Positions 1,381 to 63,069 of a stretch of DNA of 64,000 nucleotides are shown piece after piece; the stretch's first letter is position 1; each line of letters starts with the position of its first letter. The DNA is taken from IMG/VR virus record IMGVR_UViG_3300024262_000017, positions 1 to 64,000 of that record; one strand, 5' to 3'. A program made the translations under genes and the position numbers. The notes beneath the pieces were generated by a model that did not search any database, had not been told where the DNA came from, and saw only the letters and a list, made by a program, of their open reading frames with translations. The DNA is from a virus.

Positions 1381-1390
1381 GGTGACAAAG

Positions 1391-14831: not shown

Positions 14832-14841
14832 TTCATACTCC

Positions 14842-17881: not shown

Positions 17882-18325
<444 letters not shown>

Positions 18326-19751: not shown

Positions 19752-20189
19752 TTACGTCGCGATGATGACGTAGCCGCTGGCGCTCGGGGCTTCGATGACT
19801 TGACCAATAGCCTGCTCAGTCCCAGCCACTTTTGCAGGAACGCCGGCATTGGCATAAACCAAGTCACCGACAGCAAAGGCCACAAGAGTTGCTACTTTGA
19901 ACACCAAACCGGATTTCATGGACAAGACTGTAACCTTGTTCGCGAAAGCGGCATCGCTTTGGTCCATACCTTGGATACAGAGCCAAGGAAAGTCAGGGGC
20001 TGAAGCGACAGCAGCAGACGTCATCTTGGAGACTACCGGGACCCCTGCTTCATTCTCGACGGCGACAATCATACCTTCGATGATGATGGGACTTTCCGCG
20101 GCCTTCTGTTTGAAGTTGTTCTCCATGGCACTTCGGCCGTGAGGCGGAAGGCCTGCGAGGACGTCAAACAATGAATTCAGGTTCGACAT
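19752..20189 (-). CDS. Capsid decoration candidate, paralogue 2, 145 aa
   Basis: Begins MSNLNSLFDVLAGLPPHGRS. It shares with its neighbours the IIEGMIVAVEN strand, FPWLCIQGMDQSDAAFANKV and the C-terminal SASGYVIIAT. Differences in the first loop (AMENNFKQKA) suggest older divergence from the other two. AGGAGGACGAC precedes ATG at 20189. Predicted capsid surface protein. Confidence 0.6.
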   Translation of the reverse strand: MSNLNSLFDVLAGLPPHGRSAMENNFKQKAAESPIIIEGMIVAVENEAGVPVVSKMTSAAVASAPDFPWLCIQGMDQSDAAFANKVTVLSMKSGLVFKVATLVAFAVGDLVYANAGVPAKVAGTEQAIGQVIEAPSASGYVIIAT

Positions 20190-20199: not shown

Positions 20200-21315
20200 T
20201 TAGAACGAAGCTACAACGATATAGCCTTCACTGCCGGCAGTACCGTTGGAATAGATGACCAAACCAACGGGCCATTTGTCAGTTCGGGCTTGCAAAACAC
20301 CAGCGGCGGCTTCGACCAATGTTCCGGCCACCAAGGAATCTGCAGAGTCGTGTTGCAGTTTGAAAGCGCAGCCACTGTTCAGTTTCAAACAAGTCACAAC
20401 GCCAGCCATCTGTGCGTCCCATTGGTCGTTGCCTTGGATGACCAACCAAGCGTCATCTTTGGGCGCAGAGGCCAACAATGCACTCGACATTTTGCTGACG
20501 AGGACACTGGCGGTACGCTGCTGGGGAGATAGACTCCAGGCTCCCGCGGGGTGAGTTCCGACGTAGTCGTAGTACTTACCGACATAGAGACTGCCGACAC
20601 CGTTGATAAGGATGCGGTTGCCATTGACTGGGGTTACTGCAGCCCAGGCACCACCGAGAGGCGTCACACCACCGGTATCTACGATACCAACGCCCGTTCC
20701 ACCAGTGATGGCGAGGGCATCAGCGTCAGCGAACACATCAGCGGGGGTGTCAGGATTCACAACCCAAGTGTAGGCTACGTTGTCATAGGACACCAAGGTA
20801 CCTGTGTCTCCGGAACCCGTAGCTACGACAGGCTTGCCAATGTCGCCCACCACACAGTTGGTGTACCCACCAGCAGTGCATACCAGCTGCACTGTTTTGT
20901 CGGTGTAGACCATCACCTTTTCTTCGGCTCCGGCAAAAGCTCCGGCGGCGGAAGCGGCGGCAACGACGACCCTGGTTCCTGTGGGGACTTCAGCTTCTAC
21001 TGAAGCAACGATGACAACCCAGGCTGTTCCGTCCCACTCAACAACATCACCGACGGTGAGGGCAGACCAATCTCCACCTACACCAGCGACGACGTAAGCT
21101 TTTCCAGCATCGGCGAGAGTGAGGGTCGGGGCAGTCGTAAGGGAGCTGTCAACAATCTTCAGAACGCTGGCTGCGTCGAGCTGGCGACCTTCAGTCTTGA
21201 CAACCATACCTTCTACGAGGGCGACCACATTGGGATCTGGAACGAAGCTTTTTTCCAGGGCGCTCCCATTGGGCCAACCACGCAGTGTATCGAAAATTGA
21301 GTTCAAGTTCGACAT
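20200..21315 (-). CDS. Capsid decoration candidate, paralogue 3 with ~220-residue insertion, 371 aa
   Basis: The ends match paralogues 1 and 2: MSNLNSIFDTLRGWPNGSAL and VEGMVVKTEG at the start; DAWLVIQGNDQWDAQMAGVV and EGYIVVASF at the end. Between about residues 45 and 260 lies extra beta-rich sequence, including GKAYVVAGVGGDWSAL and GDVVEWDGTAWVVI, which resembles DUF2793-type or similar small displayed beta modules. The insert sits at one point of the parent fold, as expected for a surface loop. It could be an exposed domain for host or surface binding. ATG at 21315. Confidence 0.6.
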   Translation of the reverse strand: MSNLNSIFDTLRGWPNGSALEKSFVPDPNVVALVEGMVVKTEGRQLDAASVLKIVDSSLTTAPTLTLADAGKAYVVAGVGGDWSALTVGDVVEWDGTAWVVIVASVEAEVPTGTRVVVAAASAAGAFAGAEEKVMVYTDKTVQLVCTAGGYTNCVVGDIGKPVVATGSGDTGTLVSYDNVAYTWVVNPDTPADVFADADALAITGGTGVGIVDTGGVTPLGGAWAAVTPVNGNRILINGVGSLYVGKYYDYVGTHPAGAWSLSPQQRTASVLVSKMSSALLASAPKDDAWLVIQGNDQWDAQMAGVVTCLKLNSGCAFKLQHDSADSLVAGTLVEAAAGVLQARTDKWPVGLVIYSNGTAGSEGYIVVASF

Positions 21316-21334: not shown

Positions 21335-21691
21335 TCAACCGTTACCGAGAACGAAGTCTAAGAAACGATCGTCCGCAGCTACAGCTGCTTCCTTGTGGTT
21401 CATTGGAGCCATTGAGTCACGCAGTTCACTGGGTGACCCCAGCTCTGCAACTTTGTCACTGGAGACATCAGCAACCTTTTCTAAGATGCTCAAGAGATCG
21501 ACATCAGCATTGGCGAGCTTACGAAGTACGGAATCCGTAATGTCTTCACCTGTGGCCTCGGCATACTTTTCACCGATATCCGCTATCAAAATTTCACGAG
21601 CGGATTGAACCTCTGCTTGCTTTTCACTCTCGACGGCATCCATGTAGGTCGCGGCTGCTTCCAGCACGTCTGCGACTTTTTCCATGTTCAT
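21335..21691 (-). CDS. Small helical head-module protein, 118 aa
   Basis: Start chosen at ATG 21691, preceded by AGGAAGG, giving MNMEKVADVLEAAATYMDAV. The protein is helical and acidic and holds several phi-x-K-x-A motifs (MEKVA, LRKLA, LEKVA). It lies between the decoration and scaffold-like genes. Possibly a scaffold or internal head protein; not recognised. Confidence 0.55.
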   Translation of the reverse strand: MNMEKVADVLEAAATYMDAVESEKQAEVQSAREILIADIGEKYAEATGEDITDSVLRKLANADVDLLSILEKVADVSSDKVAELGSPSELRDSMAPMNHKEAAVAADDRFLDFVLGNG

Positions 21692-21693
21692 GG

Positions 21694-21834
21694 TTACCTT
21701 CCTAATTTTTGACGAAGGATGCCCAACCCGAGAGCTGCCTGCGCTACTTGAGCGCATTTGACTACCTTGTTGGTTTTCGTCGTCTTGGCGCGTTCACGTA
21801 AAAGCGCTGCCAATTTTCGGAGTTCATCCTGCAT
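21694..21834 (-). CDS. Small basic protein, 46 aa
   Basis: A short frame from ATG 21834 (GAGGTGGGCC upstream) to TAA 21694 codes for MQDELRKLAALLRERAKTTK followed by 26 residues ending LRQKLGR. It overlaps the upstream gene by 11 bases and ends two bases before the next ATG, filling the gap exactly. Helical and basic, with an LRKLA motif. Not recognised. Confidence 0.55.
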   Translation of the reverse strand: MQDELRKLAALLRERAKTTKTNKVVKCAQVAQAALGLGILRQKLGR

Positions 21835-22057
21835 GGCCCACCTCATTCAGGAAGTCTTTCACTTCAGCAACAGATACATCAGCGGATTTACTGCGTAAAT
21901 CCTCAGCTGCTTTGAAGAGCAACTTACCAATCTCTGTTTTGGGATTGGGGTGTTGCGAGGCTTCCTTCACGATTTGGTATTGCGCTATTTTGAGAAGACC
22001 GTTTTGTTTTACGGTTTCAACAATCTCCTCAGCTATCTTCCCAATTGATCCGGTCAT
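21824..22057 (-). CDS. Small helical head-module protein, 77 aa
   Basis: Starts MTGSIGKIAEEIVETVKQNG and continues as a soluble helical protein with LLKIA, IVKEA and LFKAA motifs. It overlaps both neighbours (4 bases upstream, 11 downstream). Size and composition suggest an internal or assembly protein of the head. Function unknown. Confidence 0.55.
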   Translation of the reverse strand: MTGSIGKIAEEIVETVKQNGLLKIAQYQIVKEASQHPNPKTEIGKLLFKAAEDLRSKSADVSVAEVKDFLNEVGHAG

Positions 22058-22371
22058 ATTGACGTAAACTCCTCTGTGCCTGGTGTTAGCCCAAATGAAC
22101 CGCCTAATTGCCGCAGTAGATGAGGACCAGCGAGACCTGCTGCCAGGCCTCCACCAAACGCCAGTGCTGGGGAGAATTGTTCCGACTCGCTTTTCTTGCG
22201 TGCGTCTGCAGCACCCATACCTCTACCGACATAATACGCACCACCCAAACCGCCTGCACCTAGCAAGCCGCCTTTGAGCCACGTAGGAATGGCCTCTTTT
22301 ACCAGGCCAACTTCTCGTGAGGCAGAAGCAAGTTTGAATAGTTCAGCATATATGGCACGGGCATCTGACAT
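22054..22371 (-). CDS. Tag-like, Gly-rich small virion-type protein, 105 aa
   Basis: MSDARAIYAELFKLASASRE then VGLVKEA gives a divergent version of the N-terminal tag ending in the usual LVKEA. Two Gly/Ala hydrophobic segments follow (GGLLGAGGLGGAYYVGRG; FGGGLAAGLAG), as in other tag proteins. The ATG at 22371 directly follows the stop of the scaffold-like gene upstream. Predicted packaged protein. Confidence 0.6.
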   Translation of the reverse strand: MSDARAIYAELFKLASASREVGLVKEAIPTWLKGGLLGAGGLGGAYYVGRGMGAADARKKSESEQFSPALAFGGGLAAGLAGPHLLRQLGGSFGLTPGTEEFTSI

Positions 22372-23142
22372 TTAGATAGCTCGCAGCAACCGAATCGTGT
22401 CGTTGTAACCGCGCGAGAAGCAGTCTTCAGCCGTCTTTTCGATTTCAAGCATACCGTCATTGTAGCCCTGACGGATGTGGGCCAACTTCACTTGGCCTTC
22501 ACGCGTTTCGGCCAGCTTGTCGAAAGCGTAGCTCAGGTCGTTGGAATTCTGAGCACTGGCCTGCTTGGTCAGCTCCTCTGAAATCTGGGCCAACTTCACG
22601 CGCCCCGACGCTGTTTTGGACATTGCGTTGATTTCAGCTTCAGCGTCCACATAGCCCTGCTCGAAAGCAACCTTCTTCAGCTCTTCGACCTGCTGCTTGC
22701 CATGGAGGTAACCGAGTTCCATAGCTTGCTTGGTCAGGTCAGGGTTCTCCTGAGCAAACTTTTCAAACTCTTGCTCAGAGGGGACGCCCGTGGCGCTGGC
22801 AACCTTGGTGGTTCCCATACCCTGAGTCGCACCTTCGTACTGCGCGAGACGAGCCATGAAACCATCAGCCACGCCGGCGCCGTAGAGGTGAGCTTCTTTG
22901 ACGAGCAAGTCGTTTTCGCTGCGAGCCAAGGAAGCAGCCATTTTCACGAGCTCGCCTGTTGCCGGTTCACTGGCAGACGCAGTTTTCACGTTCTGAGGGG
23001 TCAGAGCGCTGTCCAGAGCGGCCACGAGTTTATCGCGAGCGGCGGACGTTTTCACAGGGTGTGAGTTACTGGCGGAAGCCGTCTTGGCGATGCCACCATT
23101 ATCCAGTCCCTGAAGGTCAGCAAGGATGTGTTTGATCTCCAT
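22372..23142 (-). CDS. Scaffold-like head protein dense in K-x-A motifs, 256 aa
   Basis: ATG at 23142 follows GGAGATTTTTG. The product is almost wholly helical, charged and low in aromatic residues, and it lies between protease and capsid genes, the usual scaffold position. I count 14 K-x-A tripeptides in 256 residues (for example IAKTASAS, LVKMAASL, LTKQAMEL, RVKLAQIS, IEKTAEDC), spaced along the whole length. If these are protease sites, the protein would be reduced to small peptides during maturation, as scaffold cores are in T4. A CCTACTATT element lies at 23178-23186. Scaffold role is inference. Confidence 0.55.
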   Translation of the reverse strand: MEIKHILADLQGLDNGGIAKTASASNSHPVKTSAARDKLVAALDSALTPQNVKTASASEPATGELVKMAASLARSENDLLVKEAHLYGAGVADGFMARLAQYEGATQGMGTTKVASATGVPSEQEFEKFAQENPDLTKQAMELGYLHGKQQVEELKKVAFEQGYVDAEAEINAMSKTASGRVKLAQISEELTKQASAQNSNDLSYAFDKLAETREGQVKLAHIRQGYNDGMLEIEKTAEDCFSRGYNDTIRLLRAI

Positions 23143-23177
23143 CAAAAATCTCCTTTTGTGTTCCTCAATTCACGAGG

Positions 23178-23186
23178 AATAGTAGG
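23178..23186 (-). promoter_or_regulatory. CCTACTATT candidate late promoter element upstream of the scaffold-like gene
   Basis: The - strand reads CGTCCTACTATTCCTCG, 36-44 bases before ATG 23142 in the 66-base gap after the protease gene. It is identical to the sheath and 33136 copies. It could drive scaffold, decoration and capsid genes. Confidence 0.55.
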
Positions 23187-23208
23187 ACGTTTTACCGTTG
23201 TAGACAAC

Positions 23209-24891
23209 CTAATTTGAAGGACAAATCATATTCCCGATCTGAACTGCTGCCTCTTCGAACGAAAGTTCATTCGGAAAGGTCGCAGGCAGTGCCGCAATTT
23301 TGATTGTACGCGCACTTCTTCGATGAGTGAAATCCATAGCCATCCGTATCATTGTGTTGGGTTCGTCCAACTCATCAAAGGAAGATACCTTATATGCAAA
23401 CTCACCCTCACAATTAGGGGGAGAACATTCAAATGGGCGCACGATGAACTCTGCTTCTTTACGCTGTGGTTGTAAGCCATAGACGGCAGACAACAACACT
23501 GCAGCGCCTGCAAGCTTGGGGAGTTGAGAGTCGGGACGACTACGGTAAAACAGTGGGCGTTCATGGACAGGGAGTTGGGCTATATGCCCTGTTTTGCCCA
23601 TGGCCATTCGGTACAAACTATCCCGGTGCTGTGACCTTTTTTCAGCGAGTGGTTTGAACTTATGTGCCAATTCAGGATTCACATTTTTCTCAGAGGTGTC
23701 GATGAAATCAGTGCCATCAACATCATCCATCAATTTGGGATTGTCAGTCAACATGTCAAAGACTTGTTGCTGCGCAGCAACAGCCCGGTCGAGAATGTCT
23801 TCAGAGATGCTTAAGGATGGGTCGATACGCCAGATAAAGTATTTGATGAACTCTGGTGTTGTGAGAAGTATACCCATTGAAGACAAGGTTGAAAGCACTT
23901 CAGCTGGTCGAAAACGAACCATGCTACGGATTGTTTCGTCGTCTAAAGCTGGCATCTTTGCAGCCATAGGCTTAGCCAGGTCAGATACAAAACGGCCTAA
24001 GCGCCCATTCTCATCCTTACTGGCAGAAACAGTCCCACGCAATATTTTGTGGATGAGAGACATTTTTTTCAACCCAGCCACTTTTCGTTCTGCGTTCTGA
24101 ACGTATTCACCAAGAGCGGCAGAACTTCTTATTTCTGGGATTGAGTCGGCTACCTTCTTCATCATGAAACCAAGACGGTCAGCTGGTCGTCGCACCATGG
24201 AAATATCGAAGAACCTGGGTGATGGATTCCAAACGAAAATGCGTTTTCCATTTGGAAGATAATCTCCCAAATGGTATTTTGCATGGTCACAGTAGGCTCG
24301 TCGGTTCGGTGCTTGATTTCCGCAGATGGAACAGACGTCGTACTTGACCTTGCATCCCATACTAACAGCGGGGAATTCGTCGTTTTCAATTCTTTCAATG
24401 ATGTCTTGAGCTTTGTCATTGACCAATGACAACAACAACTCAACTCGGTGCATTGGCCAGTTGTAAAAAGCTTTGAGCACATCACCGATACGCTTTTCAG
24501 GGTCCTTGTTGACATGGTGCTTGAAAATGTTGGCGTCGGTCTCGAAGGACTTGTAGTGCTGTGGCAGTACCTGGTCTTCTGTAATTTTCGTAGAGCCAGC
24601 TTGAAGAGGCCGCTCTGACCAGGAATCTCCATTTCGGTTGGGGCCATAAAACTCACCAGCAGTCATGGCTAAAACCAAAATGGTTGTGCGCCCTTTTTGT
24701 GGCTTGACGTTTTTGATGTAGTCGAGTGCTTCGCTGGCCACCTTCACATGTTCAAGGTGGTTATACTCATAAGGCTTGACCAACTGAATAGTTGGCTCAT
24801 CATACCGTGAAAGGTCATCGAGCTCGATGAGCTTTGAAAATGGGCTGTCAAACATCATCAGGGTAGAGTCCATGTAAGAGGTGGACACCAT
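23209..24891 (-). CDS. Prohead maturation protease (herpesvirus/HK97-type serine protease fold), extended
   Basis: Residues ~65-205 carry the signature: FYGPNRNGDSW near the start, FKHHVNKDPEKRIGDVL (candidate catalytic His at 125/126), a strand with VELLLSLV, and FPAVSMGCKVKY with candidate nucleophile S177. A four-ligand zinc knuckle follows (C187, C190, C201, H203 in CSICG and YCDH), as in a subgroup of phage head proteases. The last ~350 residues are an extension containing several K-x-A motifs and perhaps cleaved off. It should process scaffold, capsid and internal proteins. The start is uncertain: ATG 24891 overlaps the upstream gene by 44 bases, ATG 24873 is the alternative. Confidence 0.7.
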   Translation of the reverse strand: MVSTSYMDSTLMMFDSPFSKLIELDDLSRYDEPTIQLVKPYEYNHLEHVKVASEALDYIKNVKPQKGRTTILVLAMTAGEFYGPNRNGDSWSERPLQAGSTKITEDQVLPQHYKSFETDANIFKHHVNKDPEKRIGDVLKAFYNWPMHRVELLLSLVNDKAQDIIERIENDEFPAVSMGCKVKYDVCSICGNQAPNRRAYCDHAKYHLGDYLPNGKRIFVWNPSPRFFDISMVRRPADRLGFMMKKVADSIPEIRSSAALGEYVQNAERKVAGLKKMSLIHKILRGTVSASKDENGRLGRFVSDLAKPMAAKMPALDDETIRSMVRFRPAEVLSTLSSMGILLTTPEFIKYFIWRIDPSLSISEDILDRAVAAQQQVFDMLTDNPKLMDDVDGTDFIDTSEKNVNPELAHKFKPLAEKRSQHRDSLYRMAMGKTGHIAQLPVHERPLFYRSRPDSQLPKLAGAAVLLSAVYGLQPQRKEAEFIVRPFECSPPNCEGEFAYKVSSFDELDEPNTMIRMAMDFTHRRSARTIKIAALPATFPNELSFEEAAVQIGNMICPSN

Positions 24892-25528
24892 AACTGTGAT
24901 TCAGCATACGAATTTCCATGGCTAACTTCTTCGTTTCATCATCGACGTTTTCGGGTAGTGAATCAAGCATACCCTCAATAGTACCGATTGCGGCCAATTT
25001 CTCAAGCGTTTCTTCTACGAAGGCGTTTTCATCTGAACCAAATTTAGGGAGTAGACCCATCAGTCCCCCACCCTGTGATGCTCCTGGTGCTTGGTCTTTT
25101 CCCATAAGCTTGGACAGGCCATACATACCAGCACCGATACCACCAACGCCTAAGGCAGTTTGAAGAACCTTGTTGCGAATGTCAGCAGCTGTGGCTTCAG
25201 TCTGTTCACGTCCTTTTTCAAGCAAGCCACTTCCAACCATATACGTTGGTAAGCCAAGTCCCACACCGGCAGCTGCGCCACCGACTAAACTTTTTTGAGC
25301 CACGCCCGGGAGCCCGGTTCTACTTTTGAAGAACCTTTTTGTAGCTTCCCAGCCTGCCCCTGCTTTTTTGGTCATCTCAAAGATTTCGTTATCCACCCGA
25401 ATCTTGGCTTCCGCGATCTTTTCGATAACCTCGGTGTCGTTTTCATACAACTGTGCGAGTTTCTCAAGGCGTTTAGACGCCAGAACGCTTCGGTGAATCT
25501 CTGCCATCATTGGGTGTATCGGGTACAT
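24848..25528 (-). CDS. Putative internal head protein, 226 aa
   Basis: Helical N terminus (MYPIHPMMAEIHRSVLASKR) with LEKLA and IEKIA motifs, then a Gly/Ala hydrophobic segment (LVGGAAAGVGLGLPTYMVGS, about 80-100), a second one (ALGVGGIGAGMYGLSKLMG), and an acidic helical end. It has the same plan as the tag proteins but lacks their exact start. It overlaps the protease gene. Predicted packaged protein; no family recognised. Confidence 0.5.
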   Translation of the reverse strand: MYPIHPMMAEIHRSVLASKRLEKLAQLYENDTEVIEKIAEAKIRVDNEIFEMTKKAGAGWEATKRFFKSRTGLPGVAQKSLVGGAAAGVGLGLPTYMVGSGLLEKGREQTEATAADIRNKVLQTALGVGGIGAGMYGLSKLMGKDQAPGASQGGGLMGLLPKFGSDENAFVEETLEKLAAIGTIEGMLDSLPENVDDETKKLAMEIRMLNHSYGVHLLHGLYPDDV

Positions 25529-25531
25529 GCG

Positions 25532-26005
25532 TCACTCCACTGAGTCGAAGTAGATTTGCCCAGGATTTTCCTTCTGCCAGTTGCCATACTGTTCTTTGAA
25601 TTGTTCTGGAACAGGGGTCAACCACTGGTCAGAACCCAGGTAACGAAACCCTTTGTCTGTAAGATACGACCGAGGGTCAATTTCTTCTCCAGCAGCCTGG
25701 CGTTCTTGCATCTCTTTCATGGCAGCTTGAGTTGCTTCCTGCGAACCACCCACCATGTCTTCTTGCCAGCCGGCAGTTTTAGTCAGCTCATCCAAGGCAA
25801 CAAGACCATTGACGATTTCTTTGAACTCGGCATTCTTGTAATACACATTGGTGCCAAGTGCTTGAACTGCAGAGCGGATGTCTAACTCTGCAGGAATCCG
25901 ATGTCCTTCTGCGCGTAACCGGGCAGCGGCGATTTTGTGTAACCCAAGGTTTCGAAGTCGGTGAGAGGCTTCTTTCCCTAAGAGTTTTTCGAGATTGATT
26001 TTCAT
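25532..26005 (-). CDS. Head-module hypothetical protein, 157 aa
   Basis: Starts MKINLEKLLGKEASHRLRNL with LGKEA and LHKIA motifs close to the N terminus. The C-terminal half (SYLTDKGFRYLGSDQWLTPV) is more globular and aromatic. Its ATG overlaps the upstream stop by four bases. Not recognised; the N-terminal K-x-A cluster puts it with the putative processed head proteins. Confidence 0.5.
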   Translation of the reverse strand: MKINLEKLLGKEASHRLRNLGLHKIAAARLRAEGHRIPAELDIRSAVQALGTNVYYKNAEFKEIVNGLVALDELTKTAGWQEDMVGGSQEATQAAMKEMQERQAAGEEIDPRSYLTDKGFRYLGSDQWLTPVPEQFKEQYGNWQKENPGQIYFDSVE

Positions 26006-26670
26006 CGTTTTTCACTCCCGGAGTAAGGCATGGTTGCCTTGTTAACTGAGACTTCTGCGTCAGCAATCCCCTTGATGGTTTGGAAATTGAGACCGCCTGA
26101 CCCTGCAGTTGCAGCCTCAGTGAGGAACGAGCGCACCGCATTTTTGTCAGTGGATAACGTGGGAGCAATTTTGCTCATGGTGTGGAACGCTTCCAAGAGT
26201 GTTTTATTGTCAGCCATTGCCAAGGTTGGGTCTTCTCTTTTGAGAGCACCGAAAATGGCTTGTCTGGTCGGGCTCATTCCAAAACGGTCTTTGAGTGTTT
26301 GATAACCTTTGCCAGCCATGTCTTTGGCCAGACCCATCAGAGATTTGGCTGAGTCTCCACCAAGAGAAGAAGCAAAAGATGACCCGAACTCTTCATCAGC
26401 TTTGACACGATCGAATAAGCTATTTAGGCTACGGTCAATACGATAACCCATCGTGTCACCGGCACGGGCGCCTTCCATGGCTTTGGAAATACCTGTTGCC
26501 CCGAGGGCTGTGCCGGCAACACCTAAACCGATGCCTGCGGGTATAAGCCATCTTTTGTTTTTAACGCCAAAAGCTCCGAGTGTTGATAAACCACTCATAA
26601 TGGATTGTCCCAAGCCAGCATTCTTTTCAAAATACTCTTCAGGAGAATCAACGTGTCCGTTCATAGCCAT
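26002..26670 (-). CDS. Putative virion protein with Gly-rich segment and conserved helical C-terminal domain, 222 aa
   Basis: The start is MAMNGHVDSPEEYFEKNAGL, with FEKNA as a possible processing site. Residues ~43-63 (IPAGIGLGVAGTALGATGIS) are hydrophobic and Gly-rich. The C-terminal ~110 residues are helical and sharply patterned (IFGALKREDPTLAMADNKTL, MSKIAPTLSTDKNAVRSFL), a block I associate with structural proteins of large phages. Co-translated with neighbours (overlaps of 4 and 10 bases). Likely packaged. Confidence 0.5.
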   Translation of the reverse strand: MAMNGHVDSPEEYFEKNAGLGQSIMSGLSTLGAFGVKNKRWLIPAGIGLGVAGTALGATGISKAMEGARAGDTMGYRIDRSLNSLFDRVKADEEFGSSFASSLGGDSAKSLMGLAKDMAGKGYQTLKDRFGMSPTRQAIFGALKREDPTLAMADNKTLLEAFHTMSKIAPTLSTDKNAVRSFLTEAATAGSGGLNFQTIKGIADAEVSVNKATMPYSGSEKR

Positions 26671-27512
26671 TGCCCGAACTCCTTGCTCACGTATTGCTGA
26701 CCGGCCACTGTTTCGGCATACGACTTGGCTAATTTGATGAGTCGGTCCAAGCTTTGCATGGTTGGGGTGTCGGTGTCGACTACCCGGGCAGACTTTACTA
26801 ATGCACCTTCAGAGAGGGCTGACATTCGGAGACAGCGTCGGATGTCTGACAAGACAGGAATAGCAGCATGGCCACGAGCCGACATGGCATCTTTCTCGAA
26901 GTCGTCTAAACTGGGTCCGTAGAGCTTTGCAAACGTGGTAGCAATTTTGTCCAATTCTTCTTTGTACTCATAGGCACACTGCAGCTTTTTGTCGTTGAGG
27001 TCTTCAGCGACTTTACGAATCTTGATGATGAGCATTTGCTTCTTTTGAGGATTCTCATTGATTGGAGACAGCTCTTCTGTGGGGTCTTCAATTGTAGTAT
27101 CAACGTTTTCCTCAGGGAGACTGCCAGAAGCTTCATTCTTTCCCAGCATGTCTTTGACCTTGTCGAGTAACTCTGACATTCCGCCAAACATGTCCTGTTC
27201 TCGACCCGGGTCTGAGCTACTCACGTCAACCTCCTCGGATTCAGGTTCTTCTTTGTATACGTTTTGGAGTACCGATGTGGGGTCGGCTGGCTCGAACTCG
27301 ATAACCTTGTCACCGTCTGACTTTTGGTCAAACAGTTTCAGGTGTGCCATCATATTGGACAGTTGAACCAAGTTCTTGATTTGATCAGGGTTCAACCCTT
27401 GATCCAGGGCCATTTTGACGACACCTTGTTCTAGTGGCGTGGCGTCATTCAAGTAGCTGGAAACAACGGCCTTCGCCATCTTGTCAAATTGCTCTTCTCG
27501 GAGTTCGCGCAT
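26661..27512 (-). CDS. Head-module hypothetical protein, 283 aa
   Basis: A charged helical protein with an acidic linker (about 70-145; EPADPTSVLQNVYKEEPESE) between two helical parts. K-x-A motifs occur in both parts (FDKMA, IRKVA, LDKIA, FEKDA, LIKLA). No membrane segment or enzymatic motif. It overlaps the next gene by 10 bases. Possibly an internal or scaffold protein. Confidence 0.5.
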   Translation of the reverse strand: MRELREEQFDKMAKAVVSSYLNDATPLEQGVVKMALDQGLNPDQIKNLVQLSNMMAHLKLFDQKSDGDKVIEFEPADPTSVLQNVYKEEPESEEVDVSSSDPGREQDMFGGMSELLDKVKDMLGKNEASGSLPEENVDTTIEDPTEELSPINENPQKKQMLIIKIRKVAEDLNDKKLQCAYEYKEELDKIATTFAKLYGPSLDDFEKDAMSARGHAAIPVLSDIRRCLRMSALSEGALVKSARVVDTDTPTMQSLDRLIKLAKSYAETVAGQQYVSKEFGQWL

Positions 27513-27526
27513 GGTCTCAAGACCCC

Positions 27527-28222
27527 TTAATGAAGTATTTCGCTTATAGGTATACCACTTTTTTCAGCATTGGTGGTGTCATCACGTGTTTCAAGTGCCA
27601 ACTGAAGCTTTTCGATACTGGACTTATCTGTTTGTTCCTCGTCTGGAACAGCACGCAGGCTAATCTGTGCCCAGCGAAGTGCAGCGTTGGCTAAGCTTGA
27701 GTCTGCACGATTGATTCTTGCCAGCTGTGTCATCATGTATGCAGTTGAGCGCACACCATCGAAAACAAGTCCGGCATCAATAGAGTATGACCCACGAGCT
27801 AAGCGTATCTTCAAGCATTCCTTACCAAGGTCGACAGCATACTGTTTCAGTTCACCACCGAAGGTGTCGTGAGGAATGCTCTTGGCGTAGTCAATGATAT
27901 CGAGGTCATCTTCGAATACATCAGGGTCAAAGAACAGTGCTCGATAAGCTTCAGTAACGCCAGTTGGAATGCGTAAAATCTCTTCAGCCTCAAAGGGCTC
28001 TGCGCCTACGAGCAATAAGGCTTCTATGATTTCTCGTTTGAATTCTCGTGAGAAAATTTCATGAGCGCGCACCACATCAGGGGATACACCCTTCAGGCTT
28101 TTGCCTGAAAGTATGGCATAGAGAGATTTCTCCACGACATTCAAGCCGTCAGGCTTTTCCTTGCTCTCGACCATCGCAATGATGTCGCAGCGTTTATGGT
28201 CAGGCCGCTTCGTCACCTTCAT
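27527..28222 (-). CDS. Head-module hypothetical protein, 231 aa
   Basis: A globular alpha/beta-looking protein (AILSGKSLKGVSPDVVRAHE, FFDPDVFEDDLDIIDYAKSI). Unlike its neighbours it has almost no K-x-A motif, which suggests it is not processed. ATG at 28222 overlaps the upstream stop by 23 bases; an in-frame ATG at 28174 is a possible alternative. Not recognised. Confidence 0.5.
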   Translation of the reverse strand: MKVTKRPDHKRCDIIAMVESKEKPDGLNVVEKSLYAILSGKSLKGVSPDVVRAHEIFSREFKREIIEALLLVGAEPFEAEEILRIPTGVTEAYRALFFDPDVFEDDLDIIDYAKSIPHDTFGGELKQYAVDLGKECLKIRLARGSYSIDAGLVFDGVRSTAYMMTQLARINRADSSLANAALRWAQISLRAVPDEEQTDKSSIEKLQLALETRDDTTNAEKSGIPISEILH

Positions 28223-30842
28223 CCTCTTCTGGGGCAGCCATGGCAGTTTGATTAATCCGTAGTATCAAACTACCAAGGTTTGTGAACACTGACTGGAGCC
28301 GTTTTTCAAGGTCATTGAAATCCGTTTCGCCCAATTCTGCTTTCAAGTCGGCTTCTCGCATCCACAGGGTCAAAAGAATCCGACCCAGGTTGTCGAGGGC
28401 TTTTTCCAGGTTGGGAAGATAGTTTGACACTGCCTCACGCAAATCAGCGTCAGTTGCCATAGACCCGATTGCAGTGGCTTCGAAAGCCTCGGGGTCTTCC
28501 AGCATTGCAGCATCTTCCATCATTGGTCCCGCTTGTCCAGCCATCTCTTCTGCAGCCATAGGCTGCTCAACAGGCATCTCACCACCCATACCTGGAGCCA
28601 TACCCTCAGCACCCGGAGGCATTCCACCACCCGGAGGCATTCCACCACCCGGAGGCATTCCACCACCCGGAGGCATTCCACCCATTTCAGGGGGCATACC
28701 CTCAGCACCAGGAGGGGGCATTCCTTCAGCACCAGGAGGGGGCATTCCTTCAGCACCAGGGGGTGGTTCTTGTGGTACTGAACCTGGAGGGCCGGCCATG
28801 GGGCCACCCATTTGTTCCATAGCAATTTGCTCAGCACGTTGTTTCACGGCTGCAATAGCAGACATTTGATTAGCAACGTCACGTTGTTGCTCTGCGATTT
28901 GCTGAGAAAACATGGCAGACTGTTGTGCCAAGTCTGCTTCGACTTCGGATGCAGCCAATTCGACAGGGCTTGGAGGCGGAGGTTCAGGGGGCATCCCACC
29001 CATCATTTCAGGGGGCATCCCACCCATCATTTCAGGCGGCATACCTTCTGCTCCGGGGGGCATACCTTCTGCGCCGGGAGGCATTCCGCCTGCCATCTCA
29101 GGAGGCATTCCACCCGCGCTAGGGTCTCCAGCCATGGGAGCAGGCCCTTGAGCTACCTTCAACCAGGCTGCGAATTTGCTCAACTGTGCCGGCTTTACCA
29201 GGTAAAACGAGTGGTGTCCACGTGCAGCTGTCTTGGTAAGCAGGGCTACTGCTTCCGGACCAGACAACTCTAAGTCTTCCACCAAAGAACGAACCGTAGC
29301 TACTTTGGATTGAGGCTCCAAGCCACCAATAGAAAACATGGAAGCGCCTGCATCCTTCAACTTTATTCGGATGGCGCCTTCCTTCTGCAGAGCTTGAGTG
29401 TAACGCAGGGTATCATCGATTCCCTGCAAGCTGGCGTCGTTTTCATGCTCACCACGAACAAAGCTATAGTTGTCTGGCAGGTACGTGACATTTCCGTCTG
29501 CCGGAGCAACAATTTGTTTGATAGGGCTCTTTGGGTCAGTGACTATGATGCGTCCACTGCTGGTTTTGATACGGCGAATTCCGTCACTACCTGTCGTGAT
29601 GTTCAAGACATCAGTTGGTTGAGTAGCTTGAAATTTACCGCCTCGATTACAGAAGAAGAATCCATAGCCTGTCCCTGAATCTTGGGAGGAATCAACGAGC
29701 TTGGCCAGCTTACCCGTGATTTCTTCAGCAGGGATCCAACGACCCACCGGGGGTTCGGTGGTCGTCATGATTTTCCCATCTTCTGTGTACACCAAGAATT
29801 GCTGAGGATTTTGGTGATGGGAAGGTTCATTGGGTCGACCGTATTCATCGACCATCAACTTAGCCGAAGAACGGCGGTGTTTCTGCCAGTATGCATTAGG
29901 AACAAAACGAAGGTCTGTTCGGTTCCCAGCATACAGAGGTGATACAAAAGGTTGAGGTTCAGAAATAACCAAGCATTTCTTTACCTCACCACCTTGGAAA
30001 TGGATTTCATAAAAACCATTTTCCTGAGCAGTAACTCTCCGTACTGGTTCTTCGGTTTCGATAGCTGCATTCGTTTCTTCACGGTCGTCAGCTACGACGA
30101 AACCAGTCTTTACAGCTTCTTGCCATGCCGAAGCAGCATATTTCCCAAAAGCTTTTTGAAACTGACTTGCAGTGTCATTGGGAGTTAGGACTGCTACTCG
30201 CGCACGAGCGGATGCTGTTTTCTCTACATGGGGTCGCAGGGCATCCATCAGTTGTTTGCGGTCAAAGTTTTCAAAAGCAAACTTTAACACACAGGCATTC
30301 TTTTCTAACACCAGTCGGAAGGCTGTCTTCACACGATTTGGTGCATCTGAGAGAAACTGCGCCAGCTTTTCTCCTGGTTCTGAGAAAGAGGCATACACGT
30401 GCCGCCCAACTGTTGGCGGGATAACCACGTCGCGGATGTCTTGGTCAGGTTCGAGTTCCTTGGGTGGTTCCACACCTTCTCCAAGGTCATCGATAGAATT
30501 TCTCGCAATTTCATCGAGCCATTCTTTATCCAAGGGTAGGAAGATGTTTTTGTCTTTGTAAAATACAACTTCCATAGGCTTGATTTGATTGCCGGCCAGC
30601 ACCGCAGGGACATAAAGTGTAATCCCATTGAGAGAAATGACAAACGCACCGACAGCAGACCCTGTATCCAGGTTCGTATCTAAGACTTTGAACGTTTGGA
30701 CGCTGTCTAATAGCTCTGGGAATTTTCCAGACAACACACCACTTGCCATTTGGCTGAAACCCTCTTCGAATGCACGAGTGGCATCTTCGGGGGTAGAAGG
30801 TGGTTGCATGAATCCTTGTGTTCGTGGAGAAAGTCCGGGCAT
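28200..30842 (-). CDS. Large structural protein with Gly-Met-Pro-rich repeats, 880 aa
   Basis: Residues 1-~560 are a globular region with beta-rich parts (GNRTDLRFVPNAYWQKHRRS, QQFLVYTEDGKIMTTTEPPV) and several K-x-A motifs (VEKTA, LTKTA, LSKFA). Residues ~575-640 and ~690-745 are runs of GMPPG, GAEGMPP and GGMPPEM units, separated by a Gln-rich helical segment. The last 100 residues are helical and acidic. It is one of the largest proteins of the module. Likely a virion or assembly protein; no family recognised. ATG at 30842 with GGAGAGGAC upstream. Confidence 0.5.
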   Translation of the reverse strand: MPGLSPRTQGFMQPPSTPEDATRAFEEGFSQMASGVLSGKFPELLDSVQTFKVLDTNLDTGSAVGAFVISLNGITLYVPAVLAGNQIKPMEVVFYKDKNIFLPLDKEWLDEIARNSIDDLGEGVEPPKELEPDQDIRDVVIPPTVGRHVYASFSEPGEKLAQFLSDAPNRVKTAFRLVLEKNACVLKFAFENFDRKQLMDALRPHVEKTASARARVAVLTPNDTASQFQKAFGKYAASAWQEAVKTGFVVADDREETNAAIETEEPVRRVTAQENGFYEIHFQGGEVKKCLVISEPQPFVSPLYAGNRTDLRFVPNAYWQKHRRSSAKLMVDEYGRPNEPSHHQNPQQFLVYTEDGKIMTTTEPPVGRWIPAEEITGKLAKLVDSSQDSGTGYGFFFCNRGGKFQATQPTDVLNITTGSDGIRRIKTSSGRIIVTDPKSPIKQIVAPADGNVTYLPDNYSFVRGEHENDASLQGIDDTLRYTQALQKEGAIRIKLKDAGASMFSIGGLEPQSKVATVRSLVEDLELSGPEAVALLTKTAARGHHSFYLVKPAQLSKFAAWLKVAQGPAPMAGDPSAGGMPPEMAGGMPPGAEGMPPGAEGMPPEMMGGMPPEMMGGMPPEPPPPSPVELAASEVEADLAQQSAMFSQQIAEQQRDVANQMSAIAAVKQRAEQIAMEQMGGPMAGPPGSVPQEPPPGAEGMPPPGAEGMPPPGAEGMPPEMGGMPPGGGMPPGGGMPPGGGMPPGAEGMAPGMGGEMPVEQPMAAEEMAGQAGPMMEDAAMLEDPEAFEATAIGSMATDADLREAVSNYLPNLEKALDNLGRILLTLWMREADLKAELGETDFNDLEKRLQSVFTNLGSLILRINQTAMAAPEEDEGDEAA
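28613..28684 (-). repeat. Four 18-bp coding repeats (GGGMPP)
   Basis: Four units of CCGGAGGCATTCCACCAC (+ strand), the last with its final two bases changed, follow each other without spacing; related 24-bp units occur to 28765 and again at about 28985-29115. All are multiples of three and stay in frame in the 880-residue gene. Confidence 0.85.
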
Positions 30843-30859
30843 CTTTTTGTCCTCTCCTA

Positions 30860-31471
30860 TTATATGAGCTTCCCTGCTTGGTAAACCATGACAGGTTTCA
30901 TAGCGTGCATTGCATGAGTCAAGAATGCTGGAATCAGGGTTTTAACTGCTTGCAATTTGTCTGGCACATTTCGTACTGCTTCTAAAGAGGCGCCCATTTC
31001 TTCAACGAGACCAGGCGCTGCCAGAGCAGCAGAAGCCCCTGATAAAATATTGAGTACTTCTCGTCGGGTGTCTTGGTCACCAATTAGTGTACGAATAGCC
31101 AGCATGGCTGGTAGGGCTGCAACGTTATTTACGTTGGTAACACCCTGAGCAGCTTGAAGTACTCGTCCATATATTTTTGAGTTACGCATATTCCTGGCAT
31201 GACCAAGCTCATGCGCTGCTACAGCAGGGTTTACAACACCCAAGGTAATGAGGTCTTTATTCGGATGATAGCTACCTTGTGCTCCAGGTCGGACTTGTAG
31301 TCGAACACCTTTCAGCCGAGGATCAGCTTTCAAGTAGTTTTGGATGGTTGTAGAAACGTTGGCTGCGCTACCAGGTTCGTTGTAAAACCCAGACACACCT
31401 GCCAAGCGTCGCGTAAGTTCCCTGAGCCCCGGAGTGGTGGTCAGGTCTTGTATCGTTGCGCCGTTTGCCAT
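30860..31471 (-). CDS. Zincin-like (HELGH) putative metalloprotease of the head module, 203 aa
   Basis: Residues ~84-91 read VAAHELGHAR, the HExxH zinc-protease signature in a helical context, preceded by a strand and a Pro (LGVVNPAVA). Downstream VEEMGASLEA (about 157-166) offers a Glu as third zinc ligand, as in gluzincins. Several hydrophobic helices (VAALPAMLAI, ASAALAAPGL) suggest membrane contact, like M48-type enzymes. It might process virion or host-envelope proteins. Start ATG 31471. Catalytic activity is inferred from the motif alone. Confidence 0.6.
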   Translation of the reverse strand: MANGATIQDLTTTPGLRELTRRLAGVSGFYNEPGSAANVSTTIQNYLKADPRLKGVRLQVRPGAQGSYHPNKDLITLGVVNPAVAAHELGHARNMRNSKIYGRVLQAAQGVTNVNNVAALPAMLAIRTLIGDQDTRREVLNILSGASAALAAPGLVEEMGASLEAVRNVPDKLQAVKTLIPAFLTHAMHAMKPVMVYQAGKLI

Positions 31472-31491
31472 TTCTTTCCATCACTTCGTCG

Positions 31492-31830
31492 TCACTTTGG
31501 GGCCGACACAACCTTCGGCACGTTCTCCGCGGTAATACCTGTGTCGCTTTTTTGTGCAGCTACTGTCTCGGATAACGTGGGATTTGATCCACCCAAATGT
31601 TTGTCGTACAACCCACGCAATCGTCGATAGTAATCTTCATTTTCCGCCAGAGCACCTAAATGGTTTTCAGGAGAAACACCGAGTTCATTTTGCAGACCTG
31701 CGAGTCCCATTTCGTACTGTGCGTTTTGTCGCATGGTATCGATGGGGTGTGCACTACTTAGCTGTGCTTCTTTGATCTGTTGATCTAAAAGAAGAACGGC
31801 CGTTCCACGAAGTTGTGCTCGCCTATCCAC
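31492..31830 (-). CDS. Head-module hypothetical protein, 112 aa
   Basis: GTG start at 31830 with GAGTGACG upstream. The protein is helical and soluble (AVLLLDQQIKEAQLSSAHPI, NEDYYRRLRGLYDKHLGGSN), with one QIKEA motif near the N terminus. It sits between the zincin-like gene and the 414-residue tag gene. Not recognised. Confidence 0.5.
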   Translation of the reverse strand: MDRRAQLRGTAVLLLDQQIKEAQLSSAHPIDTMRQNAQYEMGLAGLQNELGVSPENHLGALAENEDYYRRLRGLYDKHLGGSNPTLSETVAAQKSDTGITAENVPKVVSAPK

Positions 31831-31846
31831 GTTTCGTCACTCGTTG

Positions 31847-33091
31847 TTACGCTTGCAAACCACGAAGCCGGGAAAGAAGGTTTCCACGAGCAGCGGAGAC
31901 AGAGGCTTTCTTCTCAGTCTCATCCTTCTTCTCGTCATCTTTCTTCTCGTCCTTCTTCTCGTCCTTCTTCTCGTCCTTCTTTTCCTCGTCGTCCTTGTCA
32001 CCCATGTAGTTCTTCAGGGCCTCAGGAACTTCGGCGGTTTTTTCCATACGATTCACGAGAACTTCACGATCTTGCGGGGGCAAGCTCATGAGGTACTGAA
32101 CCGTGGCGACCTTTTGGTGCTGGTCAAAAAAGAAGGGGAAGCGGTTGGCATACTTGGCGCCAACTTGCTTGAAGCGCTGCATGTACTCGACATCTTCCCC
32201 AACTTTGGTCTCTTGAATGACAGTGTTGGTACCACCCTCACTCTTTTCCTGGTCGGGATGAGCTTTTTCTTCACCGATGCGAGCGCTGGCCGGCACCTTC
32301 ATGTCGGTTTCGCCTACACCAGTCTCACCCTTGTTGGCGTAACTTGCACCACCAGGGCGATTCTTTTCGTCGAGAGTACCTTCACCCGTGACCGCGTCAC
32401 CAGGAACTTCGCCCACACCAACCGTGGTGCTGGCTCGCTTGTTTTGCGTTGCGGCTTTGATGAGATTCCGAATGCTTGCGGATTTCATCCCAACCTGCTC
32501 AGCCGCAGAATTGGTTCCGTCGACGGCGACAGGACCCATCCCAACACCTTCGACTTTTTCTTCATCACCGATTTTGCCCTTGCCGGAATCCTGTTGCAGG
32601 CCGACACCATCTTCGCCAACGTTGGCGTAGTTGTCAGGACGCTGTTGCTGGTCCATCTTGGATTCTGCAGTGGTCGCATTGGCAGTGCTGTTTTCCTGCT
32701 CAACACGGTCACCAGTGATAGTGCTGCCTTCACCCAGCTTGCGAAGGAACCGCGCAGCTGCACGTTTCACAGAAGCAGACTTCGCAGCCTCTTCAGCCAC
32801 TTCTGCGGCCGGAGATTCTTGTGCAGCGCCAGCACCAGCACCAGCTACAGACTCAGCAGCCTGGGCAGCATTGGATGCACTAGCTTGCAGTGTGTTGGAA
32901 AGTTCGACGAGATTGGCAGCCAGGTCAGCAGTTGCTTCAGGGGCGACTGCTTCGACCGGTTCCTCCGGCAAACTTTCGGACGCCTCGTCTGCCAAGGCAG
33001 CGGCGAGTTCCTCATTGGCGACTTTGAGAGCGCCGGTATCGATCAACGCCTTCATGGTGCCGCGTGCGTAGGCTTTTTTGAACATTGCCAT
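31847..33091 (-). CDS. Tag-bearing acidic/low-complexity head protein, 414 aa
   Basis: Starts MAMFKKAYARGTMKALIDTG then ALKVA, a tag-family N terminus, with AAAGGAG upstream of ATG 33091 and a CCTACTATT element at 33136. Ala/Glu-rich sequence fills residues 25-110, followed by basic K-x-A-like blocks (VKRAAARFLRKL) and long polar stretches. The C terminus has a repeat of EKKD units (about 367-395), coded by 12-bp repeats. Codon choice is GC-rich as in the capsid gene, so it is probably abundant. A longer frame exists on the opposite strand but has no ribosome site. Likely an internal or scaffold protein. Confidence 0.6.
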   Translation of the reverse strand: MAMFKKAYARGTMKALIDTGALKVANEELAAALADEASESLPEEPVEAVAPEATADLAANLVELSNTLQASASNAAQAAESVAGAGAGAAQESPAAEVAEEAAKSASVKRAAARFLRKLGEGSTITGDRVEQENSTANATTAESKMDQQQRPDNYANVGEDGVGLQQDSGKGKIGDEEKVEGVGMGPVAVDGTNSAAEQVGMKSASIRNLIKAATQNKRASTTVGVGEVPGDAVTGEGTLDEKNRPGGASYANKGETGVGETDMKVPASARIGEEKAHPDQEKSEGGTNTVIQETKVGEDVEYMQRFKQVGAKYANRFPFFFDQHQKVATVQYLMSLPPQDREVLVNRMEKTAEVPEALKNYMGDKDDEEKKDEKKDEKKDEKKDDEKKDETEKKASVSAARGNLLSRLRGLQA

Positions 33092-33174: not shown

Positions 33175-34968
33175 CTAATACTGACCCTTAGGCCCTCTAC
33201 CGAATTCTGCTCCATAAACAAAACCTGGAACAGGGTGCGAACCATGCAGGTCTGCTTTTTCTCCAAATTGTGCAGCGTCCAACACTGTTTGCTTCAAACG
33301 CCTGTGTCCTAAACGAGCCAACCAGTTCGGATTGAGTAGGGGATTGCTGGTAATGGACTGTGCAATGAAAGACATCTTTGGTGGTTGTTGTGCAATTTGA
33401 ACTTTTGATATTCCATTAGCCGCGAGGTCTTTGGAGACTTCAGGGGTAACCATTGTCCCCGCCGTGTGGTGTAAATATCCTTTACCTAACACCCCACCCT
33501 TTGCCTGTTTCAAGGTTGTGTTCTTTGTATTTTTTCCAAGCTCTTTGAGCATGACATTGTAGTTTACGATTTCACCCGGGTAGAAATTCTCTTCAGGATC
33601 TTCATCAATCTGAACGTGGTTGAGATGCGTTCTTGCCAAGACTTCAAAGTGTCGTTTGTCTAAATCGGCACCTTGAGCCTTGTAGGTATTGTATAACTGG
33701 TCAACCATGTATTTACGCCCAGCGCCAAGACCCTTGTAATGTACAAGCTCATCCGGTTTGGTTATTCCGTTTGTGAGTGTATCTCCTCGTGAAACTGTCT
33801 GACCCTTGCGAACTGTTGGGTCAGTGCCCGGAGGTGCGTATTGAGTTTCTCCACCAACAGTAATGTTGTAGCCACCCTGTGGGGCCTTTTGGATTTTGTT
33901 GACCTTACCATCGGTGTCAGAAAGTATGGCCTTATCTGCAAACGTGCTAGGCATCTCTAAGAATTGCCGGAGACCTTTGAGTCCCTTTATCTTGGCGGCA
34001 TCTGCTCCAGCTTGTCTCACACCGTGACGTGCACTCAATGTAAATTGAGTCAGCGGTTCTGTGATGGCCTGAGCAGAGCGTATTCCGATATTGGTACCGA
34101 TGGAATGGAGACCACCCTTTTCGTTAACACCGAAACACTTCTGACACACACCATCGGTGTGCTCGCACGTCATCGGTGACCGAACAATAGCGGTCTTTGT
34201 TTTTTTATGCAGCTGTGAAAGTACTTGCGGAGTAATTTGGGTGTTGTAACCAAAACCCGCAGTAGGCTTTGCTAAAAAGCGGTCAACCGTATTTGGGTCA
34301 TCTGTCTGCATTGGAATACCGTTGTGTGTTCCGCAATCTGCATCCACAACCAGCTGGTCACCCATATTATTAACAAGAATCTTAGCAAAATCACCTGGCT
34401 CAGACACAGCAAGATTTGCAGCCATCAGGTTATTTCGAGATTCAATGCTCGTTGCCCAGTGTTCACTTGGGCGTAGTCCTTCACTGTAACTGTGATGGAC
34501 GAGCCACGGGTAAGCTTCGCCTTTGGCGTCTCGTGCTGCTACAGGAGCCATGAAAGAGCGCATTAATTGCGTGGGACCTCCACGGGTTCCTGAATTAACC
34601 ATCATTCCTTGTGTACCACCAAACTGAGGCATTACTTTTATCAGCTTAGCTTGAGCGTTCTGAATGAGTTGTAGTCGTTTGGTAGGGTCAGATACATTTT
34701 GCAGACTTTTGAGTGTTGGTTTCAGAGCCGCGTTTCGAGCTTTGTAATCAGGGGTGATGTCATTCAAACTAATAGACGCCCCCTCGCTAGTCGCAATTTC
34801 GTGTCCTAAGCGTCGAACATTTTCCATCGTCTGTGCTGCAGAAGTTGGATCCCTCCGTGCCAGTGTATAAAGACGCTGGTGCAGTCCCTTTTTATTGAGG
34901 GTTGCAGAGGTTTGAAGATCCTTGGGCAACACATCGTTGACCAAAAGCTGTCCGAAGGTTTGGGGCAT
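33175..34968 (-). CDS. RNA polymerase beta-prime subunit, C-terminal half
   Basis: This 597-residue chain continues beta-prime where the fused gene stops. In order: NSGTRGGPTQLMRSFMAP (E. coli SGARGSAAQIRQ), HHSYSEGLRPSEHWATSIES (bridge-helix region FREGLNVLQYFISTHG), DCGTHNGIPM, TCEHTDGVCQKC (with the Cys of DCGT the four zinc ligands are kept), the trigger-loop region SAQAITEPLTQFTLSARHG (SIGEPGTQLTMRTFH), and a C-terminal SFIAQSITSNPLLNPNWLAR (ASFLTRRAISESLLSP). It must assemble with the product of 36541-40902. Four small genes separate the two, so this is a gene split, not an intron. Confidence 0.9.
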   Translation of the reverse strand: MPQTFGQLLVNDVLPKDLQTSATLNKKGLHQRLYTLARRDPTSAAQTMENVRRLGHEIATSEGASISLNDITPDYKARNAALKPTLKSLQNVSDPTKRLQLIQNAQAKLIKVMPQFGGTQGMMVNSGTRGGPTQLMRSFMAPVAARDAKGEAYPWLVHHSYSEGLRPSEHWATSIESRNNLMAANLAVSEPGDFAKILVNNMGDQLVVDADCGTHNGIPMQTDDPNTVDRFLAKPTAGFGYNTQITPQVLSQLHKKTKTAIVRSPMTCEHTDGVCQKCFGVNEKGGLHSIGTNIGIRSAQAITEPLTQFTLSARHGVRQAGADAAKIKGLKGLRQFLEMPSTFADKAILSDTDGKVNKIQKAPQGGYNITVGGETQYAPPGTDPTVRKGQTVSRGDTLTNGITKPDELVHYKGLGAGRKYMVDQLYNTYKAQGADLDKRHFEVLARTHLNHVQIDEDPEENFYPGEIVNYNVMLKELGKNTKNTTLKQAKGGVLGKGYLHHTAGTMVTPEVSKDLAANGISKVQIAQQPPKMSFIAQSITSNPLLNPNWLARLGHRRLKQTVLDAAQFGEKADLHGSHPVPGFVYGAEFGRGPKGQY

Positions 34969-63068: not shown

Positions 63069-63069
63069 C

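Follow-up and report, generated by a model that had tools for sequence, protein, structure and literature searches.

A K-x-A tripeptide as candidate recognition site of the head maturation protease in a family of large tailed phages

The present study analyzes the head genes of a tailed phage within a 64,000-base window, bases 1-64000 of the 122,545-base virus record IMGVR_UViG_3300024262_000017, whose proteins include DNA polymerase, primase, helicase, terminase and the products of two large RNA-polymerase-subunit genes. The head maturation protease of this phage, encoded at 23209-24891, very probably recognizes the tripeptide K-x-A. The initial annotation had offered a K-x-A form as a candidate maturation-protease site, and this is supported by enrichment of the motif in head proteins, by its recurrence locus by locus in relatives, and by invariant sites at the arm of the capsid protein and on both flanks of the protease domain.

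Starting at about 33 kb, the head genes are read on the minus strand as far as the capsid gene (18338-19240). Among named phages the closest are Salmonella phage Arash and Vibrio phages D69, D148 and D181, with about 30-41% protein identity and identical gene order, and many IMG/VR contigs of up to about 198 kb are closer still. Phages with the K-x-A head code form an unclassified family that is widespread and large in genome size, and almost every head protein in it is annotated as hypothetical.

Results

All ordered pairs of residues, at each spacing from 1 to 6 (2,400 patterns), were compared with shuffles made within each protein. In the head module (21335-33091, minus strand) K-x-A ranked first of the 2,400 patterns, with 78 copies against 28.5 expected (z 10.7), and it was also first in the scaffold protein alone (14 vs 2.7) and in the module minus the scaffold (64 vs 25.4). 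The longer form phi-x-K-x-A, with a hydrophobic residue two before the Lys, was found 47 times in 3,844 residues (12.2 per 1000), against a mean of 7.1 and a maximum of 15 in 1000 shuffles; when residues were exchanged only within physico-chemical classes, so that the amphipathic pattern was kept, the mean was 13.3 and the maximum 24 in 1000. There was no enrichment of R-x-A, K-x-S, K-x-G, K-x-V, K-x-x-A or K-A in the head module by the same scan. Nine non-head proteins (helicase, primase, DNA polymerase, terminase, RNA polymerase beta and beta', a sheath-like protein and two from the tail region) held 8 copies of phi-x-K-x-A in 7,343 residues, vs 9.0 expected. The contrast that the initial annotation had drawn by eye between head proteins and tail or replication proteins is thus strongly borne out, with a chance-level count in the set that includes the sheath-like protein, polymerase and helicase and with sites in the internal-type (5 and 4 K-x-A) and right-edge proteins (9). 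The scaffold (22372-23142, ATG at 23142) does carry 14 K-x-A in 256 residues, 10 of them with I, L, V, M or F two before the Lys. The span 21335-33091 is enriched overall, although its genes at 27527-28222 and 30860-31471 contain no site.

Applied to head proteins of phage T4 as a positive control, the scan placed I-x-E first for gp20-24, 67 and 68, and I-x-E first and L-x-E second for gp21/22/67/68. I-x-E and L-x-E are the known site of the T4 gp21 protease, and the pair scan therefore finds true protease sites. K-x-A reached only rank 53 in the T4 head proteins. The T4-type motifs L-x-E and I-x-E were at or near chance in the head module of the window (28 vs 27.0 and 19 vs 13.3), as were S-x-E, A-x-E and G-x-E of the phiKZ/SPN3US type (15 vs 19.9, 39 vs 36.5 and 24 vs 26.3), and both sets were rejected as the code of this phage for want of enrichment; A-x-E was modestly enriched in scaffolds pooled across relatives (268 vs 203). 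Codons of the scaffold sites vary for both Lys (AAG/AAA) and Ala (GCT/GCC/GCG), which rules out a DNA-level repeat as the source and shows that selection acts on the protein.

About 150 related loci were gathered in two further scans, and 112 were scanned one by one. K-x-A ranked first in 89 of the 112 and among the top three in 101, down to about 35% protease identity. In loci with both genes, phi-x-K-x-A numbered 539 (142 expected) upstream of the protease, 369 (51.5 expected) from protease to capsid gene, and 62 (60.9 expected, or chance) in the tail genes after the capsid gene; R-x-A was at or below chance in all three intervals. Fifty-five candidate scaffold orthologues held 505 K-x-A, with 134 expected, and 71 R-x-A, with 72 expected. 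Comparison of the window scaffold with L010, its nearest relative, showed Lys and Ala kept at 23 of 28 positions within the motif and at 15 of 29 outside it (p 0.02). A covariation test for a changed motif in divergent relatives found no switch; the capsid-protein exceptions are one-residue shifts and loci L081-L087 still use K-x-A, so there was no switch to exploit.

Invariant or near-invariant copies lie in the protease and the capsid protein. The protease matches phrog_18299, a head maturation protease, over residues 84-237 (E 2e-10). Pfam gave no match for it and no usable family for the head proteins, and a sequence search of PDB with the protease profile returned only chance matches to coiled coils and toxin-binding subunits. 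The best PDB fold matches are herpesvirus assemblins (Epstein-Barr virus E 0.01, probability 0.97; range E 0.01-0.5, TM-score about 0.3). Residues H126, S177 and D229 are invariant or nearly so across relatives and would make up the catalytic triad. In the AlphaFold2 model residues 53-242 are confidently predicted, and segments 37-51 and 243-256 have no ordered structure (predicted local distance difference test, pLDDT, below 50). K50-V-A52 stands at the edge of the first of these segments and K246-V-A248 within the second, so that both near-invariant sites fall in or at linkers around the catalytic domain; Ser directly follows K50-x-A52 in 71 relatives. The catalytic domain has an insert at residues ~186-203 (24260-24335, minus strand), a CxxC...CxH cluster, DVCSICGNQAPNRRAYCDH, that is probably a zinc ribbon and that almost all the relatives examined retain, phage G gp19 among them.

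The scaffold gene lies directly downstream of the protease gene and the capsid gene 3-4 kb further on in the window, Arash, D69 and the IMG/VR loci. The capsid protein is 41% identical to Arash gp226, annotated as major capsid protein, and the PDB matches of its model are HK97 and encapsulins (E 3e-10). K-x-A occurs at the end of its N-terminal arm in every relative, 73 times in aligned position and 3 times shifted by one residue (LEKVA, LDKVA), mostly as G-R-V-K-E-A. In the model K27-x-A29 lies between the first helix (10-22) and the helix that leads into the HK97 fold. The motif is scarce in the mature part of the protein, with 3 copies vs 34.9 expected in the 76 related sequences. This most informative site is in a gene outside the coordinates first proposed for the motif, and its context also modifies the form proposed, since the core is K-x-A and a hydrophobic residue at -2 is only favoured.

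A second class of sites ends a shared N-terminal sequence. About a dozen proteins of the phage, otherwise unrelated, begin with some 25 residues of the form (L)-L-K-x-A-Y-x-x-G-x-x-x-A...K-x-A, often followed by a glycine-rich stretch. The strict form (AYxxGxxxA...K-x-A) was found in 39 of 1,956 open reading frames (ORFs) of relatives, as compared with 3 in shuffles that allowed a single start, the real search having used more start codons. Most of these tags had been said to end in phi-x-K-x-A; that form is not universal among them, ALKVA having no hydrophobic residue and some tags closing with K-x-G or K-x-S. By analogy with the capsid-targeting sequences of T4 and P1, they are probably capsid-import signals that the protease would remove. 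A second cluster of AYxxG-tagged genes was seen at G000 115272-121961 (L004/L005), several ending in K-x-G/K-x-S and followed by glycine-rich, possibly membrane-inserting segments.

The RNA polymerase beta/beta'-like genes (36541-40902 and 33175-34968, minus strand) adjoin the head module, and beta subunits have a K-x-A close to their N termini (VRKKA, MPKSA, MPKKA); Arash beta begins MPKSA. By mass spectrometry of Arash virions both RNA polymerase subunits are among the most-detected virion proteins and beta is the most detected of all (PMC10585845). Together, detection in virions and K-x-A near the beta N termini suggest that the subunits are packaged and trimmed cargo.

Coordinates of the proteins and predicted processing sites are collected in Table 1.

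Table 1. Head proteins, predicted processing sites and tagged candidate cargo in the window.
Feature	Coordinates	Strand	Remarks
Head maturation protease, 560 residues	23209-24891	-	N-terminal extension, catalytic domain ~53-242, C-terminal extension
Predicted N-terminal self-processing site K50-V-A52	24736-24744	-	K and A in 73/79 aligned relatives
Predicted C-terminal self-processing site K246-V-A248	24148-24156	-	K 87/89, A 86/89
Major capsid protein, HK97 fold	18338-19240	-	AlphaFold2 pLDDT 86
Predicted capsid processing site K27-Q-A29, end of N-terminal arm	19154-19162	-	76/76 relatives
Scaffold protein, 14 K-x-A in 256 residues, no known family	22372-23142	-	55 candidate orthologues with 505 K-x-A (134 expected)
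Small head protein, 7 K-x-A in 117 residues	21335-21688	-	
Small head protein, 5 K-x-A in 77 residues	21824-22057	-	
Small protein, candidate internal cargo	22054-22371	-	N-terminal sites LFKLA-S and LVKEA, then glycine-rich segment
Internal-type head protein, 5 K-x-A	24848-25528	-	
Internal-type head protein, 4 K-x-A	25532-26005	-	
Internal-type head protein	26002-26670	-	N-terminal site FEKNA
Head core protein, 7 phi-x-K-x-A in 283 residues	26661-27512	-	Position-equivalent Arash virion protein gp220 has 9
Large head protein, 13 K-x-A in 880 residues	28200-30842	-	(GMPP)n low-complexity tract; position-equivalent Arash gp218 is a virion protein
Right-edge protein, 5 phi-x-K-x-A and 9 K-x-A in 295 residues	63070-63957	-	
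Tagged head protein MFKKAYARGTMKALIDTGALKVA, 11 K-x-A	31847-33091	-	Predicted cut before NEE...; tag also in relatives
Tagged candidate cargo MLKLAYQIGQQQALEEENIDRLVKEA	34975-35346	-	Predicted cut before QEL
Tagged candidate cargo MLKIAYLRG...ADLIKEA	16241-17314	-	Predicted cut before F
Tagged candidate cargo MLKTAYEIGALAAYVDAGLVKEG	10207-10629	-	Predicted cut before S; K-x-G ending
Tagged candidate cargo MLKHAFSLGYQEAIKEA	14313-14852	-	Predicted cut before E
Tagged candidate cargo MLREAFKRGLEAAWADAGLEKEA	1349-1831	+	Predicted cut before G
Tagged candidate cargo MLKVAYQLGVQAAFEEAGLSDMNKEA	62604-63107	-	Predicted cut before A

Several other features of the region were recorded. The 880-residue head protein has (GMPPGAE)n repeats in its C-terminal half (28474-29000, minus strand), which are probably the cause of GxxP, the second-ranked pattern of the scan. 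Between the scaffold and capsid genes are three adjacent paralogues (19293-19736, 19752-20189 and 20200-21315, minus strand), all beginning MSNLNS(I/L/A)FD, where related loci seem to carry one short gene; they are perhaps a capsid decoration protein expanded in this phage. Just downstream of the capsid gene an ORF of 147 residues (17882-18325, minus strand) contains a long (PEPEPKPE)n low-complexity tract. A candidate further substrate outside the head module, at G000 91817-95314 (L003 9818-13315), is a protein of 1,165 residues with 5 phi-x-K-x-A and 10 K-x-A.

Discussion

The patterns detected are consistent with a processing site whose Lys is most likely at P3, with the cut after Ala at P1 and Ser favoured at P1' (K-x-A/S). 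In scaffold K-x-A sites Ser directly after the Ala is 4.6-fold over background and Leu 0.2-fold, and across the head proteins Pro is depleted both at the middle position and after the Ala, a profile that R-x-A sites do not have. The residue at -2 varies, being preferably Leu, Met or Phe in scaffolds and mostly Arg in the capsid protein, and some tags replace Ala by Gly or Ser and keep the Lys. It is these four features, Ser preference, Pro depletion, variable -2 and Gly/Ser replacement, that place Lys at P3 and Ala at P1. Ser at P1' also has precedent: it is favoured in that position by SPN3US gp245, whose cuts follow A-x-E (PMC10052503), and in the P1 capsid protein the bond cut joins E120 to S121 (PMC9024508). 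Ser at P1' is thus common to the window code, SPN3US gp245 and phage P1, but P1 is Glu in the latter two.

The same protease could instead read phi-x-K at P3-P2-P1 and cut after the Lys, which is the register implied by the first comparison of the motif with T4, in which Lys takes the position of Glu. L-x-K is indeed enriched (43 vs 21, z 5.4, in the window and 158 vs 52 in scaffolds) and would fit the T4 geometry of phi-x-P1. We consider this register unlikely, because K-x-A is enriched much more than L-x-K, there is little or no excess of I-x-K, and the Ala is almost invariant; the capsid site mostly has Arg at -2 and no hydrophobic residue, the Ser preference comes right after the Ala as at P1' of known phage relatives, and changes of Ala to Gly or Ser in tags are those expected of a small P1 pocket. 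The T4 comparison therefore stands for architecture and probably fails for the code.

Less probable again is that K-x-A is a short docking motif for a shared partner, either the capsid shell or the protease, and serves in targeting with no cutting at all. Such a role would agree with the abundance of copies in the scaffold, with their presence in tags and with surroundings that look helical (hydrophobic at -2, Glu at -1), but it would leave unexplained the near-invariant copies at the ends of the protease domain and at the capsid arm, the Ser preference after the Ala, and the adjoining gene for a protease of the maturation family. Targeting could also coexist with cleavage, as in the T4 capsid-targeting sequence. 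Finally, the head proteins form helices and have a high content of Lys, Ala, Glu and Leu, but a mere effect of this composition is scarcely credible given the counts under both plain and class-preserving shuffles, the flat controls R-x-A, K-x-S, K-x-G, K-x-V and K-x-x-A and the low rank of K-x-A in T4, and the placement of the invariant sites, too, fits processing better than helical composition.

Several observations weigh against K-x-A as a protease site or limit how far it can be taken. Cleavage is inferred from sequence and not from a mature N terminus or a cleavage product. K27-A29 begins helix 26-44 in the capsid model rather than lying in a disordered loop, and the catalytic domain of the protease itself carries K-x-A (98 vs 72 expected), so that these copies must be protected by folding. 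Related sequences are not independent and pooled z values are overstated by this. Similarity to the assemblin fold is weak (best E 0.01), and the claim of kinship is therefore limited to the known link between phages and herpesviruses. For Arash, judged by the mass-spectrometry list in PMC10585845, two or more motifs are found in 16 of 114 virion proteins and 1 of 137 undetected ones (Fisher p 2e-5), which is partly an effect of length as virion proteins are longer; virion proteins do exceed their own shuffles (90 vs 50.9) and undetected proteins do not (20 vs 24.8). Cleavage sites are not reported in the Arash paper, from which the word protease is also absent (PMC10585845). In Bacillus phage G the protease sites are retained, but K-x-A is missing from the capsid protein gp27 and scarce in the remaining head genes scanned, which may mean that the rule holds there only in part.

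With K-x-A taken as the protease site, the following course of events could be proposed, in which we infer the cleavage itself, the exact bond, the order of steps and the role of the tags in directing packaging. Protease, scaffold and N-terminally tagged cargo would gather as a core within a shell of capsid protein. The protease would release itself by cuts at K50-V-A52 and K246-V-A248, which flank its catalytic domain, and would then break down the scaffold, at as many as 14 sites, to peptides of a size that can exit, remove residues 1-29 of the capsid protein and trim the tags from the cargo. Each cut would follow Ala, with Lys at P3, often a beta-branched residue, Glu or Gln at P2, Ala at P1, Ser, Ala or Glu at P1' and a hydrophobic residue at P5.

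Much of this resembles T4 gp21/gp22, in the order of protease, scaffold and capsid protein, the many scaffold sites, the N-terminal propeptide of the capsid protein, the N-terminal signals on internal proteins and self-processing. Differences from T4 are the site, K-x-A and not (L/I)-x-E, and the protease, which has 560 residues, a Cys-rich insert and a long C-terminal extension. The T4 analogy is good for architecture and not for code. T4 gp21 is kept inactive by its own N terminus and activated through self-cleavage (PMC9958956), and the phiKZ and SPN3US proteases self-process at the C terminus (PMC5694885); for the window protease both N- and C-terminal self-processing are predicted. With phiKZ gp175 and SPN3US gp245 (MEROPS S80) it would share a large phage with a virion RNA polymerase, self-cleavage, a three-residue P3-x-P1 rule and, for gp245, the preference for Ser at P1' (PMC10052503). 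Those enzymes, unlike the one described here, cut after A-x-E or S-x-E, and Lys at P3 with Ala at P1 is not described for them (PMC10052503, PMC5694885).

In vivo the assemblin of pseudorabies virus ends in Ala225, that is, herpesvirus assemblins cut after Ala (PMC4498786). Like these enzymes (S21), which are its best match among solved folds, the window protease would cut after Ala, be released from a longer precursor and act on a scaffold. Assemblin sites have a hydrophobic P3 and are few per scaffold, unlike the Lys at P3 and the 14 scaffold sites seen here.

The closest named counterparts are Arash gp222/223/226 and their equivalents in Vibrio phage D69, with a protease 30-35% identical, a capsid protein about 40% identical, and the same gene order and K-x-A sites. 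The Arash paper makes no mention of K-x-A sites, and gp222 and gp223 are annotated only as structural proteins. A distant homologous protease, Bacillus phage G gp19, has 7 phi-x-K-x-A in 300 residues, with LVKTA/VVKIA before the catalytic domain and LEKVA-S after it, at the same place as K246-V-A248 of the window. The scan gave no clear rule in the outgroups Pupper and Sebata. The capsid proteins of these actinobacteriophages (L158 13719-14711 and L159 14207-15208) share EKQ(V/A)KLAHILSDK near residue 44, possibly a related processing site. The K-x-A motif was not described in the literature searched on this motif and on cleavage rules of prohead proteases, a coverage largely outside subscription papers, and the code differs from the Glu-P1 sites of T4, phiKZ, SPN3US and P1.

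The finding has several implications. K-x-A is a testable cleavage rule, which predicts mature ends and names the protease, the scaffold and the proteins likely to be ejected. With somewhat more reserve than for the site itself, we favour a wider reading in which a family of ~120-200 kb phages would use a K-x-A/S protease code with Lys at P3 and a herpesvirus-like cut after Ala, the same code ending a portable import tag of about 25 residues on around a dozen unrelated proteins that would be packed and then trimmed. If it works, the tag adds a new signal for import into capsids. Protease codes of other uncultured phages could be revealed by the blind pair scan, for which T4 served as a check. 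The pattern also suggests that phage head proteases can change their code so that Ala replaces Glu at P1; Ala is also the residue after which the herpesvirus assemblins cut.

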